Shown: positions 47,799 to 64,000 of the stretch, one piece after another | Position numbering within the stretch: the first letter of the stretch is position 1 | Layout of the letters: the number at the start of each line of letters is the position of its first letter | DNA from: an uncultured Granulosicoccaceae bacterium | Lineage (GTDB): Bacteria > Pseudomonadota > Gammaproteobacteria > Granulosicoccales > Granulosicoccaceae | DNA: 64,000 bases | Assembly (NCBI GenBank): GCA_938035525.1 | Contig: CALHOI010000046.1 | Location: 1 to 64,000, forward strand | Direction: 5' to 3' | Position numbers and translations under genes: made by a program | The notes under the pieces: generated by a model | Database searches by the model: none | Told to the model about the DNA's origin: nothing | The model's input: only the letters and a program-made list of their open reading frames with translations

Positions 47799-50111
47799 AT
47801 GAATCCGCTCAATAGTGAATCCAAGCTTCTCAAGACCTTACAGCGGCTGCCTTTGGTACGTTCAATTGATGAGCAGCGCTGGGAATCGCTGATCCCGCAC
47901 ATCAGTTTCTCCGATATGTCGCAAGGTGACGTGCTGTTTAGCCAGGGCAACAAAAGTGAAGAACTCTTCATGGTTATCGACGGAGAAATACAACTCTGTT
48001 TACCCAATAAAGACGAAAGCACACATTTCTATTTGCATTCGCGTTGTAAGGGAGAAACCGCGGGTGACTTCGCTGTTGTCAATGGTGGTACTCATTTGGT
48101 CAGTGCCGTTGCCGCAAAAAAATCCAAAGTCGCCAGATTTCCCAGGGTCGCGTTTGAACTGCTAGCCAATATAGATCCTGGCATTCTTGCCCATGTTTAT
48201 GACACGGCAGCAGAGCTATCGCGCAGGGTCATGTTGGCCAAGGTGTTCATCGATATGTTTGGCGACATTAACACCGAGACCATGGATGCCTTGCTGGACA
48301 GCACTGTTATTCGTCACTACACCAGTGGCGAAGTGTTAATCGAAGAAGGTGATGAAGCCGACGGCTTACACATCGTTGTGTCCGGTCGCCTCCAGGTTGA
48401 AACACTGAACAGTGAAAACAACACGGTTGTGCTAGCCGAGGTGCGCGCACCGGAAACCGTGGGTGAACTTGCATTAATGTCTGATTCTGTACGTACGGCA
48501 ACCGTGTACGCCATAAGAGAGTCCACAGTCGCGTTTTTGAAAAAAGACATGTTTGATGAGCTCATTGCCAAACGTCCCGATATGTTGATGCCCTTATCAA
48601 AACTGGTGGTACAAAGACATGTTGAAAAATCACGACGTGTGCACGCCAAGGCGAAAGACCAAACCATTGCCATCATTCCCCTGGACCACAAGTTACCTCT
48701 GCGTCGGTTTTTGCATCAACTCAAACGCGAGATGCGTTGCTTTGGCAATCCTTTGCTGCTTGATGCAAGGGCCTTCGATACCTTGTACGGAAAAAAAGGT
48801 GTCGCCCAAACAAACTTTGCCGATGTTTTTAATTCGGCCATAGCCGAATGGCTGGACGACAAAGAAAACAGTTACCAGGAAATTTTGTATCTTGCCGACC
48901 CTGTTATGTCGTCATGGACCAAGCGATGTATTAATCGGGCAGACCGCATCATATTATTAGCGGATGCCGATAAAGAAAACACATCGAAGCTACGCGATAT
49001 CGAACACGAGCTGCGCGCCATGCTCAGTAATGCTCGGTATCATCGCAAAGTTGATTTGGTGTTGCTACACGCCAAAGACACAAAACAGCCCTCCCACACT
49101 GCACGTTGGTTACGCAAACGAGAACTCAACGCCTATCATCACATCCGCATCGACGATGTTGATCATATGGCACGCTTGGCTCGCCGCATTTGTGGTTGTG
49201 CAAGAGGCATTGTGTTCAGTGGCGGTGGTGCACGAGGCTATGCACACTTAGGCGTGCAAAAATTAATTGAAGAGCACGAAATCAACATCGACTATATTGG
49301 TGGTTCCAGTATGGGTGGGTTGCTTGGTGCTTCCATGGCAATGGGGCAAAATACTGAAAACATCAATAGTTTATCGGCTGTGTTCGCAAACAAAAAAGCA
49401 CTTTTCGATTATACACTGCCACTGGCATCACTATTGAAATCTGCAAAACTGACCAGATTCTGCCATGAGGTTTATGGCGAATCACGCATTGAAGATTTAT
49501 GGATACCGTTTTTTTGCGTGTCATCCAATCTGGCTGATGGCAAAGAAGTCGTTCATGACAGAGGCCCATTGTGGCGAGTGGTCAGAAGCACTATTTCCCT
49601 GCCCGGCATATTCTCCCCAGTTCCAACACCGTCTGGGCAGTTATTAATTGATGGCGCAGTGTTAAATACGTTTCCTGTCGATATCATGCATGAGCAACTT
49701 GGCGGACGCGGCAGTATCATCGGGGTCAATGTGAGCCAGATAATTGAAATTCGAGCGTACTACAACTACGGAACATCGCTTTCAGGTTGGCAAGTATTGT
49801 TATCACGTTTAAACCCGTTTGCCAAAAAAATTCGTATCCCGCGCTTGGTTGAAACACTACTCAGGTCTACCGACATTAAAAGCATTATCCGACTCAACGA
49901 AACCAAAGCAATGCTTGATGTGTTAATCGAGCCCAATGTCAGTGAGATTCCATTGATGGAATTTAAATCATATAAACGAATTAGCGAGATCGGCTACGAA
50001 GCAGCAGAGAAGGTATTCAAGGAACACGGCCTGATTGGTTCAGACAAACTAACCATACCGAATCAGTCATACGACTCGTACGCTGCAGAATCCAGGTCAC
50101 AAAGTAGTTAA
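47799..50111 (+). CDS. Cyclic-nucleotide-binding patatin-like phospholipase (NTE family)
   Basis: A 770-residue protein related to neuropathy-target-esterase-type lipases. Two cyclic-nucleotide-binding domains occupy about residues 18-140 and 145-265 (first with GDVLFSQGNKSEELFMVIDG; second with GEVLIEEGDEADGLHIVVSG and PETVGELALMSDSVRTATV). A Rossmann-like middle region (LPLRRFLHQLKREM to about residue 450) follows, then the patatin domain: GGGARGYAHLGV at 475, nucleophile Ser 504 in GSSMG and Asp 618 in DGAV. It would hydrolyse phospholipids or lysophospholipids near the inner membrane; whether nucleotides regulate it is inference. Single gene. Confidence 0.92.
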   Translation: MNPLNSESKLLKTLQRLPLVRSIDEQRWESLIPHISFSDMSQGDVLFSQGNKSEELFMVIDGEIQLCLPNKDESTHFYLHSRCKGETAGDFAVVNGGTHLVSAVAAKKSKVARFPRVAFELLANIDPGILAHVYDTAAELSRRVMLAKVFIDMFGDINTETMDALLDSTVIRHYTSGEVLIEEGDEADGLHIVVSGRLQVETLNSENNTVVLAEVRAPETVGELALMSDSVRTATVYAIRESTVAFLKKDMFDELIAKRPDMLMPLSKLVVQRHVEKSRRVHAKAKDQTIAIIPLDHKLPLRRFLHQLKREMRCFGNPLLLDARAFDTLYGKKGVAQTNFADVFNSAIAEWLDDKENSYQEILYLADPVMSSWTKRCINRADRIILLADADKENTSKLRDIEHELRAMLSNARYHRKVDLVLLHAKDTKQPSHTARWLRKRELNAYHHIRIDDVDHMARLARRICGCARGIVFSGGGARGYAHLGVQKLIEEHEINIDYIGGSSMGGLLGASMAMGQNTENINSLSAVFANKKALFDYTLPLASLLKSAKLTRFCHEVYGESRIEDLWIPFFCVSSNLADGKEVVHDRGPLWRVVRSTISLPGIFSPVPTPSGQLLIDGAVLNTFPVDIMHEQLGGRGSIIGVNVSQIIEIRAYYNYGTSLSGWQVLLSRLNPFAKKIRIPRLVETLLRSTDIKSIIRLNETKAMLDVLIEPNVSEIPLMEFKSYKRISEIGYEAAEKVFKEHGLIGSDKLTIPNQSYDSYAAESRSQSS

Positions 50112-50902: not shown

Positions 50903-58510
<7,608 letters not shown>

Positions 58511-58719: not shown

Positions 58720-60867
58720 CTAAATGGCATTGGCATAACTGGGTTTGACTACCCCGTTTTGCGATTCGATAGTTTGGTCAAATTTTCTTAAGACCTGCTC
58801 TTTACGAATGGCCAGCGCAGACAATTTGTCTGCGGTATCAAGCTGTAATTCACGCCGGATGGATTGCCTTCGCAACGTGCTGTCGCGATAGGCCTTGAAG
58901 GTTGATTCGTTTCTTTGGGAGTTATGAGTGGCATCTTTTCCGTACAACGTTGAGTGAGCTATACACTCCAGTATGCCATCTTCTACTGAGGCCACTAATT
59001 TTTCGTCGTGCAAGAGATCTGACAAGACTCGGGATTCAAACTGTTCATCATTGACGTTGGGGTCGTTAAACAAACTGATGAGCGTGTCACGCTCAACGGT
59101 GTTCAGGCCATATTCTAATGCGACAATGGCAAGATTTTGTACCACGTATAAATCAAGATACATCATGGTGGTATCCAGCAATGCGGTACCGGCTTGCAAA
59201 CGCACACTGTTAACAGAGTGTGGTCGGCGCTTGTATTTGGGATCGATCTGACTGGCTTTTAGCTCGAGCAGCAAGCGCTCTATCAGTGGATACACAATAG
59301 CGCCTCGTACACGCTCGGCCCAGTAAATACGTGCACCACTGTTACGCCAATGCCCTGTCATAAGCTCAGGATCACGTATACCTTCTTCTAACGATACAAC
59401 CGTATCAAGCAACTTGATAACAATACCTGACAAGGTATAAGGCATATCAGCTTCGGTGGGTTTAATGTTGGTTCGCGTGAAACTGTCAAAATTATACTGT
59501 GCCTGCGGCGGCATCAAGTGTGGGTGCTTAAGCGTAATGGCGGCCTTGTTGACCCCGTCGGTATGCACATTGGAATCGGTTAGCTCTGACACCATTGCGG
59601 CGACGGGCCCACCAAAACGAAACTGAATTTTGCGCAGCGAATGACCGTAACCGGTAACTCTGGCAGACCCATCCTCAACAACGTCGTGCAACATGGCAAG
59701 GGTGACAATCAGCGGTTCGAGTGCACGGCCAAGCACACGTTCGGCAATAGCGGAAATGCGAAAAGCATGAGCCGACATAGTGCTTAACGATTTACGTCGT
59801 CCTTTCTCCAATGAGCGCATCATTTCCAGACTGGCCAGATGCACTGTTTCGATAGAGTTAGGGTTATCAGCGGCAACATAATATTCCATGACTGGCAAAT
59901 TCATGTGCACTTCGTGCACGGCTTTGCCACGCCGACCTGAGAGTCGCTCGCGTTTGTCGGGGTCGTCCAGGGCATCTCTGACAGCCATTAGCAATGTGTT
60001 ACGCAGTGGGTCGCGCAGCGCGTAGTGATCGACACCGTTTAGCCCAAATGCAATGCGTGTGCGCCAGTAGTCTAGTTGTAGAAAAGGACGCTCTGGAAAA
60101 TCGCTGGCTATATCAACCCCTTTTGCTTCTAGTTCTGCCAGGCCGTGTGCGTCCAGAAAACTGATGACCTGATCACCGGCGGCTCTGGCGGTGAGTCGTA
60201 ATCGGCTTGCCTCGATGGCGGCCACCGCTGTTGCTATTTCTTTTGAGGGTGGATCATCGGGGTTTTCGCCTGCTTCAATGGCTGCTTCAAAGCGCTCCAG
60301 ATAATCGTTTAGCTCGCGGACCTTACTGGCGACGTCGTCACCAAACCAGGAAAACAGATAGCTATCATCAATGATTTCGTGGTCGGAAGATGTAATGGCA
60401 CTGTACCGATAGGGCTTTCCGTAGGTGCCCTGCAGCATGGTGGCCACGATCATATCGTGCGTCATGCTCGGCATGCCTAAACCGTGATTGCCATACAACC
60501 GCACACCCAGCAGCATATTGGCCGCCAGCACAGCAGCATGGATAGTCGGCTCAAGCTTGGGGAGTCGATTGGTGTTAATAAGATATTGCGAGCCAAACGT
60601 GGCTATGTCGAGCTTGCTGGGGTCGATGGTTTCAGGGTCGATGTCTTGATCGCTGAACATCTCGGCGGCCAAAAGATCACGTCCACGTTGAGTATTGAAC
60701 AATTGGGGTGGCAATGAGGACAGAGGTACCGAGTGTTCGACCTCGGTGGCAATCCAGCGCCGAGAGATTTTGCCAGCAATGGCCCGCTCCATATCGCCGG
60801 TACCAGCCAGTACGCCATAGGCTCTGACAAGCTTGACGAGATCGGTTAATTGGTAGGCACGGGCCAC
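58720..60867 (-). CDS. Large HD-domain protein, RelA/SpoT-hydrolase-like, function unknown
   Basis: A 715-residue soluble protein I cannot assign to a named family. Residues about 360-430 hold an HD-type metal site: His 367 (AHAFRISAIAERV), His 394-Asp 395 and Glu 398-Asp 399 in AMLHDVVEDG, then RFGGPVAAMVSELTDSN, the order seen in the hydrolase half of RelA/SpoT. No synthetase, TGS or ACT domain is apparent. The N-terminal third (GVRLYGNHGLGMPSMTHDMI) and helical C-terminal third are unfamiliar. It begins with a GTG at 60867, GGA upstream. Between the giant surface gene and nth, each across more than 200 bp, so probably a single gene. Nucleotide hydrolysis is inference. Confidence 0.7.
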   Translation of the reverse strand: MARAYQLTDLVKLVRAYGVLAGTGDMERAIAGKISRRWIATEVEHSVPLSSLPPQLFNTQRGRDLLAAEMFSDQDIDPETIDPSKLDIATFGSQYLINTNRLPKLEPTIHAAVLAANMLLGVRLYGNHGLGMPSMTHDMIVATMLQGTYGKPYRYSAITSSDHEIIDDSYLFSWFGDDVASKVRELNDYLERFEAAIEAGENPDDPPSKEIATAVAAIEASRLRLTARAAGDQVISFLDAHGLAELEAKGVDIASDFPERPFLQLDYWRTRIAFGLNGVDHYALRDPLRNTLLMAVRDALDDPDKRERLSGRRGKAVHEVHMNLPVMEYYVAADNPNSIETVHLASLEMMRSLEKGRRKSLSTMSAHAFRISAIAERVLGRALEPLIVTLAMLHDVVEDGSARVTGYGHSLRKIQFRFGGPVAAMVSELTDSNVHTDGVNKAAITLKHPHLMPPQAQYNFDSFTRTNIKPTEADMPYTLSGIVIKLLDTVVSLEEGIRDPELMTGHWRNSGARIYWAERVRGAIVYPLIERLLLELKASQIDPKYKRRPHSVNSVRLQAGTALLDTTMMYLDLYVVQNLAIVALEYGLNTVERDTLISLFNDPNVNDEQFESRVLSDLLHDEKLVASVEDGILECIAHSTLYGKDATHNSQRNESTFKAYRDSTLRRQSIRRELQLDTADKLSALAIRKEQVLRKFDQTIESQNGVVKPSYANAI

Positions 60868-61101
60868 TTACTGTTCCATTGTATTTACTCAGTAAAGAAT
60901 AGCAAGTGAATGAGAAAAGGAAACCATACGGATTGGCAAGCAAGCGACTAATTCTGTCGTTCGGTGATGCATATCACTCTATTTAACAATCCAGCACACC
61001 ACCGGCTTTTAATAACTGGTTTTATTACCGCTAAAACACCCAGCCAGTAAAAAGGTAGTGTTATTACAAACACTCTGCTCAGTTGTTTGTGGTGCGGTTA
61101 A

Positions 61102-61902
61102 TCAGACACGATTGGATTTGGTTTTTGCCTTTATTGTTGAACCGGCCTGCTTTGCTGAGCTGGCTTTCTTTCGCGAGCTGGCTTTCGTTCGTGAGTGAGC
61201 TTTCTTTGTCAAACCAGTCTTTTTTGCCGCAGCGGATTTTTTAGTAGAGCCCGATTTCGCTTTTTGGCCGGGCTGCGTCTTTTGCTTGAATTCACACAAA
61301 TCGTTAATCGGGCATTCCGGGCATTTTGGTGTACGAGCAACACAGATATACCGGCCATGCAGAATGAGCCAATGATGGGCATCCAGCAAGTATTCCCGCG
61401 GTACAAATTTCAACAGCTTTTTTTCTACTTCGACAACGTCTTTTCCCGGCGCAATCGCGGTCCGATTAGACACACGAAAAATGTGCGTGTCTACCGCCAT
61501 AGCAATTTGCCGAAAAGCCGTATTCAATACCACATTGGCCGTTTTACGCCCGACACCGGGCAAAGCCTCCAGCGCTTCACGATCAGCTGGCACAACCCCG
61601 TTATGGCGCTCATGCAGTATTTGGCAGGTTTTAATGACATTTTTGGCCTTGGTGTTAAACAGACCGATAGTGCGAATATGATGACGTACTCGTTCTTCCC
61701 CCAAGGCCAGCATTTTTTCGGCCGTATCGGCCTCGGCATAAAGAGCTTTGGTGGCGTTGTTGACACTGACATCCGTAGCTTGAGCTGAGAGCAACACCGA
61801 AATTAACAACTCAAATGGCGAGTTATAGGCAAGCTCCGTCTTGGGTTCGGGGTTGGCCGCCTTCCAACGGGCAAAAATCTGTTCGCGTTTTGCAGGATTC
61901 AT
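61102..61902 (-). CDS. nth: Endonuclease III (DNA glycosylase/AP lyase) with basic tail
   Basis: Nth removes oxidised pyrimidines and nicks the abasic site. Residues 1-210 match the E. coli enzyme closely, with the helix-hairpin-helix LPGVGRKTANVV, catalytic Lys 120 and Asp 138 (VDTHIFRVSNR) and the iron-sulphur motif C-x6-C-x2-C-x5-C in CVARTPKCPECPINDLC. A 55-residue extension after the cluster is rich in Lys/Ala/Ser/Gly (KKSAAAKKTGLTKKAHS), like histone-type tails, and is not in E. coli Nth; it probably increases DNA affinity. Start at ATG 61902. Single gene, divergent from SRAP. Confidence 0.96.
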   Translation of the reverse strand: MNPAKREQIFARWKAANPEPKTELAYNSPFELLISVLLSAQATDVSVNNATKALYAEADTAEKMLALGEERVRHHIRTIGLFNTKAKNVIKTCQILHERHNGVVPADREALEALPGVGRKTANVVLNTAFRQIAMAVDTHIFRVSNRTAIAPGKDVVEVEKKLLKFVPREYLLDAHHWLILHGRYICVARTPKCPECPINDLCEFKQKTQPGQKAKSGSTKKSAAAKKTGLTKKAHSRTKASSRKKASSAKQAGSTIKAKTKSNRV

Positions 61903-61989: not shown

Positions 61990-62682
61990 ATGTGTGGTCG
62001 AATCAATGTTTCAGACAACGAAGGGGTGCGACTGTTGCTGGCCATGCTGGGCATGGAAGTCTGGCCAAGTCGAGACCCCAGATTCAACATAGCGCCGAGT
62101 CAAACGCTGGATGTGCTTACCGTGAATGAAAACGAGTTAGCCCACGAAAAAATGACCTGGGGCTTGTTACCGGCCTGGGCTAAACCGGGCAAATTTTCGG
62201 CGCCACTGATCAACGCTCGCAGCGAAACCATTCACGAAAAACCCTCTTTCAAAAAACTGATTGCCGAGCACAGGGCACTGATTCCAATTAATGGATTTTA
62301 CGAATGGAATCGCGAAGGCAAGGTGAAAGTACCTTACTTTATTAAGCCCAGTGATGCTAACGCGATGTTTATCGGCGCTCTGTTTCAACCACCAAAACCA
62401 GCATCTGCACAACAAGAATCTGAACGAGCCCAAGTGTGCGTGGTTACCGTTGCCGCAAACGAAAAAATGAGCCAGGTTCATCATAGAATGCCGGTGATAC
62501 TCGAACCCGATGCTGCAATAAACTGGTTACACGAAAATAATCGCGACGCATTAAGTGATTTAATGCGCCCGGCAAGCAACGATGCCTTATCTATTACACA
62601 AGTCAGCGACTACGTCAATTCGGCCCGCAATGAAGGTCCAGAGTGTGTAGCAGAAAAAAGAGTGAATGATTTGTTCGACTAG
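61990..62682 (+). CDS. SRAP-family protein (YedK/HMCES-like)
   Basis: SRAP proteins form a thiazolidine cross-link with abasic sites in single-stranded DNA to shield them. The 230-residue protein has catalytic Cys 2 (MCGRINV), the DNA-binding NIAPSQ, TWGLLPAWAK, NARSET, the active-site Glu in PINGFYEWN, and the His in VHHRMPVIL. Length and order are typical. It lies divergent from nth by 87 bp, two abasic-site functions side by side. No LexA box is obvious upstream. Confidence 0.95.
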   Translation: MCGRINVSDNEGVRLLLAMLGMEVWPSRDPRFNIAPSQTLDVLTVNENELAHEKMTWGLLPAWAKPGKFSAPLINARSETIHEKPSFKKLIAEHRALIPINGFYEWNREGKVKVPYFIKPSDANAMFIGALFQPPKPASAQQESERAQVCVVTVAANEKMSQVHHRMPVILEPDAAINWLHENNRDALSDLMRPASNDALSITQVSDYVNSARNEGPECVAEKRVNDLFD

Positions 62683-63612: not shown

Positions 63613-64000
63613 CTAGTAGCTACGTAACTGCCCTACCAACACACCCTGGAAACTGACGCGATCGGGTGCGTAATGCATGGTAGACATAGATTTATTTTCA
63701 GGAATCAGTTCCACTGACTCGTTGTCATACTGACCAAGACGCTTAAGCGTTGCCTCTTGAGCATCGATCAGTGCAACAACGATGTCACCGGTACGCACCT
63801 TGTTGGTTTTGCGCAAGATAACCGTGTCTCCGTCCATTATCCCAACATCCATCATGGAGTCTCCACTGACTCTTAGTGCGTAACGATCAGGACCAATAAA
63901 AAACTCAGCCAAATCAAGGTGGACCTGATCTTCGATTGCCTCGATAGGCTGCCCGGCAGCAATCTTACCCATTAACGGCAGTTTGAAGTCGCCTGCACTG
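63613..64000 (-). CDS. lexA: LexA repressor (C-terminal part; runs off the window)
   Basis: The visible 129 residues are the S24 autoprotease domain of LexA, the SOS repressor. The reading frame continues beyond 64000, so the start and DNA-binding domain are outside the window. The autocleavage site is the Ala-Gly in GKIAAGQPIEA; the catalytic Ser lies in RVSGDSMMDVGI and the Lys in ATLKRLGQ. The end has the family's FQGVLVGQLRSY. A product could start at ATG 63972, but the frame is open upstream with matching sequence, so it is a partial gene. Confidence 0.9.
   Translation of the reverse strand, partial: SAGDFKLPLMGKIAAGQPIEAIEDQVHLDLAEFFIGPDRYALRVSGDSMMDVGIMDGDTVILRKTNKVRTGDIVVALIDAQEATLKRLGQYDNESVELIPENKSMSTMHYAPDRVSFQGVLVGQLRSY

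Follow-up and report, generated by a model that had tools for sequence, protein, structure and literature searches.

Within the window (the whole stretch of 64,000 nucleotides that was analysed, carried by a 3.6-Mb draft genome), the minus strand encodes a 715-residue protein that holds an intact HD unit of the RelA/SpoT (RSH) type and, in its N-terminal flank, what is probably a second, dead HD. We read this twin-HD protein, with somewhat better than even confidence, as an enzyme that uses a metal to hydrolyse a 3'-phosphorylated nucleotide and comprises two RSH-type HD units, of which the second is intact and the first would be regulatory. RSH hydrolases set bacterial stress-signal levels. 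By alignment, one substrate contact that is fixed in the comparison sequences, Asn148 in RelSeq numbering, is changed here to Ser or Thr, which may leave room for a different substrate.

An earlier note on this DNA had described a 715-residue protein with a SpoT-like HD site at 58720-60867. The open reading frame is present in the ORF list, on the minus strand (the note named none), and runs from a GTG start at 60867-60865 to a stop codon at 58722-58720. The residues singled out in the note, H367, H394-D395 and E398-D399, stand where it had placed them, as does the motif that follows, F418 to N433 (FGGPVAAMVSELTDSN), and further RSH residues that the note had not mentioned, R358-K359-S360 and K485/D488, are present too (Table 1). 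The arrangement of the five residues is not due to chance, since all five are invariant in the 37 full-length members, whose identities go down to 42%.

With the protein as query, homologues are found in 35 of 57 near genomes, namely in 35 of the 36 genomes of its own family, including all 27 of its own genus, and in none of the 21 near genomes from other families of the class. The single family genome that lacks a homologue (G034) is 80% complete, and in two others (G006 and G025) the homologue is present only as contig-end or partial pieces. When the family profile (A1, 23 rows) was run against 369 genomes of the class, full-length members came only from the own family (four) and from a further gammaproteobacterial family, f52 (three), in which the gene occurs in 4/4 genomes; 27 further genomes gave short matches only. 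In a 398-genome sample of the phylum only the window's own genome matched, at E 1e-12, and whole-protein searches of phage records, plasmid records and viral contigs gave no match. As far as sampled, the twin-HD gene is thus a lineage-restricted core gene. Its hosts, Granulosicoccus and relatives, are seaweed-associated marine bacteria.

Table 1. Features of the twin-HD gene and protein (window positions; residues numbered from the GTG start).
Feature	Position	Strand	Basis
Twin-HD protein gene	58720..60867	-	ORF; homologues in 35/36 family genomes; GTG start kept in 14/14 aligned loci
N-terminal segment, residues 1-99	60571..60867	-	No match; conserved in the family
Probable degenerate (pseudo-) HD domain, residues 105-255	60103..60555	-	hhalign to RSH HD; Asp ligand replaced by invariant Ala227
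Basic linker KRERLSGRRGKAVHEV, residues 305-320, between the HD units	59908..59955	-	G311-R-R-G314 in 37/37; inspection of A1
Intact RSH-type HD domain, residues 336-540	59248..59862	-	hhalign, Pfam HD_4, model alignment
Substrate-loop motif R358-K359-S360 (= RelSeq R44-K45-S46)	59788..59796	-	Alignment and conservation
H367, predicted metal ligand (= RelSeq H53)	59767..59769	-	37/37 members; 52/52 comparison rows
H394-D395-V-V-E398-D399 (= RelSeq H77-D78...E81-D82)	59671..59688	-	37/37; 52/52
F418-G419...T430-D431 helix motif	59575..59616	-	G419, T430 and D431 in 37/37; aligned with RSH FG...LTK
K485-L-L-D488-T-V-V-S492	59392..59415	-	D488 = metal ligand D144; S492 = RSH Asn148 position
C-terminal region without recognisable domain, residues 541-715	58723..59247	-	No Pfam match; hhalign
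Candidate extended -10 element TGCTATTCT, 28 bases 5' of the GTG	60896..60904	-	Inferred; TGCTAT core largely conserved

Searched alone, the window protein matches none of the Pfam families, and NCBIfam, PADLOC and the PDB sequences give nothing convincing; its NCBIfam (E 0.18) and PADLOC (E 0.025) matches were judged noise, and a PHROGs match to a metal-dependent phosphohydrolase is weak (E 0.0049, residues 385-435). With E values up to 1 allowed, 15 of 19 members match Pfam HD_4, the best at 3.7e-10. Scanned singly against the curated HD_4 cut-off of 27.2 bits, seven of ten relatives lie above it, two lie below and one has no match; the window protein itself has none. The PDB sequences searched with the family profile yield six chains, all of MESH1, SAH or Rel/SpoT type (7qoe being named as SAH, 7qpr and 7qps as SpoT), at weak values (E 0.0016 to 0.11). 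In hhalign, residues 331-535 match 52 RSH-type HD domains at E 9e-13 (probability 97.8%), a score reached by none of the 200 controls, the best of which stands at E 0.0041; against a larger RSH set the intact HD gives E 1.7e-13. The RKS loop and the His, HDVVED, FG, LT and K..D motifs coincide with those of seven long-RSH HD domains (24-29% identity). Because of the HD_4 matches of the relatives and a profile E of about 1e-12, residues 336-540 are assigned by sequence to the RSH-type HD and not to a new fold. A contig search with the general HDVVED pattern led, among the matches listed (at least seven loci), exclusively to long RSH proteins as judged by sequence. In a FastTree analysis of the HD domains the family forms one clade on a very long branch (2.56), with two viral sequences next to it at 0.85 to 0.88 support, a position that was taken as long-branch placement and left unused.

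An AF2 model of residues 336-545, built with the 52 RSH-type rows as alignment, has a pLDDT of 69.3 and a pTM of 0.65, with the insertion around residues 434-472 poorly predicted; an alignment-free AF2 model of all 715 residues reached a pLDDT of 33.6 and was useless. VIA-align 2 puts MESH1, the SAHs and Rel at the top, with Z values from 12.9 down to about 10 and 3nr1 at Z 12.9, rmsd 3.5 and 158 aligned residues, and places the YpgQ-like HD proteins behind this RSH group (Z 9.7 and lower). Foldseek returns the same order at a best E of just 5.4e-3. The RSH likeness of the model is partly built in, because the alignment rows are RSH proteins, and its support is not independent proof. The PDB chains listed for the model include the MESH1-PAPS complex 9chy. 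The suggestion in the earlier note of a new kind of hydrolase does not hold for the domain, which is found as HD_4 in the relatives and as MESH1, SAH and Rel in both the PDB profile search and the model alignment. Its idea of a nucleotide hydrolase does survive: the metal site and the ED pair are intact in sequence and strictly conserved, and are best read as those of a metal-dependent phosphohydrolase acting on nucleotides.

A distorted metal site, which would have spoken against a hydrolase, is not what the alignments show: all four ligands (H367, H394, D395 and D488) are invariant in the 37 members and align with those of all 52 comparison rows. The pair E398-D399, which corresponds to Glu81 and Asp82 of RelSeq, presumably the catalytic pair of that enzyme, is equally invariant (37/37) and recurs in 52/52 comparison rows. 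R358-K359 is found in every member, followed by Ser (34) or Thr (three) at position 360, and the motif lies nine residues before H367, the same spacing as that of R44-K45-S46 and H53 in RelSeq. The Arg44 equivalent is not universal among the comparison rows (28/52), and 17 of the 52 rows of alignment A5 carry Asp at this position. According to a study on RelSeq, Mn is bound by His53, His77 and Asp144, with Asp78 nearing the Mn upon ligand binding, and hydrolysis is abolished by R44Q or D78A; Lys45 and Ser46 touch the guanine through their main chains, and Asn148 makes contact with Arg44, the alpha-phosphate and N2 of the guanine (PMC13299517). At the position of this last residue alignment A5 has Asn in 52/52 RSH and viral HD_4 rows, and Ser (33/37) or Thr (4/37) in the members. 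(p)ppGpp is not assured as the substrate, because an otherwise fixed Asn is lost, and activity on it could be reduced or absent. The change fits another substrate choice: RSH-type hydrolases are described as having a tunable choice between (p)ppGpp and (p)ppApp, and for the metazoan enzyme MESH1 NADPH has been proposed as substrate (PMC10434055).

In the proposed mechanism the metal, probably Mn2+, would be held by H367, H394, D395 and D488, E398/D399 would assist catalysis in the second unit (336-540), and R358-K359-S360 would cover the bound substrate in the manner of Rel and the small alarmone hydrolases. The most likely cut would be that of the 3'-phosphate or 3'-diphosphate of a nucleotide, the candidates being (p)ppApp, PAP(S), NADP(H) or some other nucleotide phosphorylated at the 3' or 2' position. 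Having lost the metal site, the first unit (105-255) would probably act as a regulatory, nucleotide-binding or dimer-mimicking partner.

The evidence for this first unit comes mainly from profile comparison. In hhalign, residues 1-330 match the 52 RSH HD domains at E 4.9e-6 (probability 86%) and residues 100-300 at E 1.8e-6 (probability 90%); neither score is reached by any of 200 controls, made up of 199 column shuffles and a reversed profile; the reversed profiles give E 0.16 and 0.10, and the best of 28 unrelated neighbour protein families used as comparison gives E 0.038. Addition of 46 viral HD proteins left these values unchanged and narrowed the match to residues 134-189. As an independent line of evidence, the sole match outside the active HD in the class-wide scan was that of A1 profile positions 110-261 to one 738-aa frame (genome E 1.4e-5), which reads as SpoT-type and was hit within its HD domain. 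A Pfam scan of ten N-terminal halves, on the other hand, returned no HD, one of them (L032) matching FCD at E 0.013, and direct comparison of the N-terminal with the C-terminal halves gave only P 0.05 to 0.1. The front register is ambiguous, as MAFFT and HMMER differ from hhalign, and in both registers the Asp144 position falls on Ala227, which is Ala in 37/37. In the hhalign register H77-D78 corresponds to positions 146-147, of which the former is variable (Q/H/R), and His-Asp is found there in 4/37 only (L005, L007, L008 and L072). The stretch LRLxARAAG[DE] is almost fixed despite the lost metal site, and for this reason the unit seems to have been put to another use, most simply, it would seem, to control the active unit or to pack against it.

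The earlier note had regarded both flanks as unfamiliar and had seen no other alarmone domain. The former view applies to residues 541-715, which match nothing (against RSH HD, residues 536-700 are not above controls in hhalign, 25/200 being as good), and not to residues 105-255, which are probably the degenerate HD. The latter stands for synthetase, TGS and ACT domains, in line with the 0 Pfam families, and fails for the N-terminal flank, which scores as a degenerate HD.

The genome carries two canonical RSH genes elsewhere, with frames of 748 and 731 aa that read as SpoT and RelA. PF04607 (RelA_SpoT) finds these two genes and no further synthetase in the genome, and on this ground we dismissed the idea that the protein is paired, in toxin-antitoxin-like fashion, with a small alarmone synthetase. 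The direct neighbours of the HD gene are a giant cadherin-like protein downstream and endonuclease III upstream. The former, at 50903-58510 (-), is a surface-type protein of 2535 aa that carries DUF4347 together with LamG-like and many cadherin/Big_9 repeats, and its N terminus reads LEPRILYSA. At 47799-50111 (+) lies a protein of 770 aa in which cyclic-nucleotide-binding stretches are combined with a patatin phospholipase domain and an NTE-type P-loop-like domain. On the other side follow endonuclease III (61102-61902, -), a SRAP (SOS-associated peptidase; 61990-62682, +) and a LexA-like S24 peptidase (63613-63999, -), a group that is partly syntenic in relatives. Across 29 loci no neighbour points to a substrate. 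Endonuclease III is nearby in 16 of them, with a two-component pair or other genes elsewhere, and at three f52 loci (L043, L044 and L045) the HD gene is preceded by a same-strand 284-286-aa protein that reads, by inspection, as a fusion of an XRE-type regulator with a shikimate-kinase-like domain. We also rejected a conserved operon, because the upstream neighbour varies (nth, histidine kinase, others) and gaps to the same-strand upstream neighbour are mostly 100-240 bases. A link to the SOS response, considered since nth, SRAP and the LexA-like peptidase adjoin, was dropped as well: the LexA-box pattern has two matches in the window, which is chance level, none of them near the gene, and none in 14 upstream regions. 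In the same 14 aligned upstream regions the GTG start and first residues are always kept, and a TGCTAT-like element about 30 bases 5' of the GTG is largely kept, which together make it probable that the gene has its own promoter. The candidate -10 was not returned as second hexamer by a sigma-70 scan.

Of the other explanations, the one that deserves most attention is that the protein is an ordinary (p)ppGpp hydrolase, a SAH HD with extra regulatory segments that works beside SpoT and tolerates Ser/Thr at Asn148. All other catalytic and substrate-loop residues match those of such an enzyme, and the structures closest to the model are ppGpp/ppApp hydrolases. However, Asn148 is a guanine and phosphate contact that is Asn in every one of the 52 comparison rows and Ser/Thr in every member here, and the genome already has a SpoT and no further synthetase detectable by PF04607, so that we consider this rather unlikely. 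The loss of Asn148 could also be accommodated by a catalytically idle alarmone receptor, which would bind nucleotide and metal and signal instead of cutting, and the invariant columns of the highly conserved extra segments would fit a sensor. Such a domain would have no need for the four metal ligands and the ED pair, which are kept in 37/37, whereas they have indeed disappeared from the other HD unit of this protein; an idle receptor is therefore improbable in our judgement.

Least probable is that the protein belongs to a different branch of HD hydrolases (dNTP triphosphohydrolase, HD-GYP or YpgQ-like) and only looks like RSH. Of the 19 members, 6 match the generic HD model of Pfam when E values up to 1 are allowed, and YpgQ chains reach Z 9.7, but HD_4 scores higher and does so in a larger number of members, RSH rows have the same HDxxED pair and RK loop at exact spacing, and the PDB profile search lists MESH1, SAH and Rel/SpoT-type chains only.

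Among known proteins, SAH/MESH1 (3nr1, 5vxa, 7qod, 7qoe, 6yvc) provide the best structural matches and have the same catalytic residues in the HD and no synthetase. They consist of a single HD of about 150-200 aa, whereas the present protein has 715 aa, a probable degenerate HD and a 170-aa C-terminal region, as well as a long insertion, not shared by SAH/MESH1, that separates the FG..TD helix from the KxxD helix. The viral SAH-like rows compared have Asn at 148 in contrast to Ser/Thr here; as a separate observation, 65 viral contigs (L105-L169) encode RSH-type HD proteins, mostly of 140-220 aa. With the bifunctional SpoT/Rel enzymes the twin-HD protein shares the order of the HD unit, its motifs and profile similarity, but it is without the SYNTH, TGS and ACT domains of long RSH (Rel, RelA, SpoT), going by the 0 Pfam families. 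The same profile finds gammaproteobacterial HD_4 proteins of 440-500 aa (L047:1411-2730, L049:1369-2781, L050:1315-2817 and L053:502-1860), in which a stand-alone HD_4 is joined to a C-terminal extension; these differ in having the HD at the N terminus and in keeping Asn148 (KLADLxDN). Their extension is conserved, and three of the four have an RNNLAH motif near the end. RelA offers a precedent for a retained inactive RSH HD, as quoted from a 2011 survey of RSH proteins (PMC3153485), although there the active partner is the synthetase and here it would be another HD. In the quoted parts of that survey, the groups are long RSH, SAS and SAH, none with two HD units, and SAH is the HD domain only (PMC3153485). 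On its sequence the twin-HD protein is not filed as SAH, because it is not HD only and lacks Asn148, nor as long RSH, because it is without SYNTH, TGS and ACT. No description of a tandem HD, of a duplicated HD or pseudoenzyme in RSH, or of Granulosicoccus together with ppGpp was found in the accessible portion of the literature outside subscription papers.

A bolder form of our preferred reading, which we put forward tentatively and at less than even confidence, is that the family represents a first tandem-HD branch of RelA/SpoT proteins, in which the active HD would cut a 3'-phosphorylated nucleotide other than ppGpp, a nucleotide-sensing dead twin would switch it, and the gene would be a core gene of one lineage beside SpoT and RelA. 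The substrate range of RSH hydrolases (ppGpp, ppApp, NADPH, PAPS) is an open subject. A protein that appears to combine an intact RSH metal site, a changed base contact and a probably dead twin offers a compact natural test of substrate choice, and as a core protein of these bacteria it may also test in what way an HD enzyme can be controlled by a pseudo-HD.
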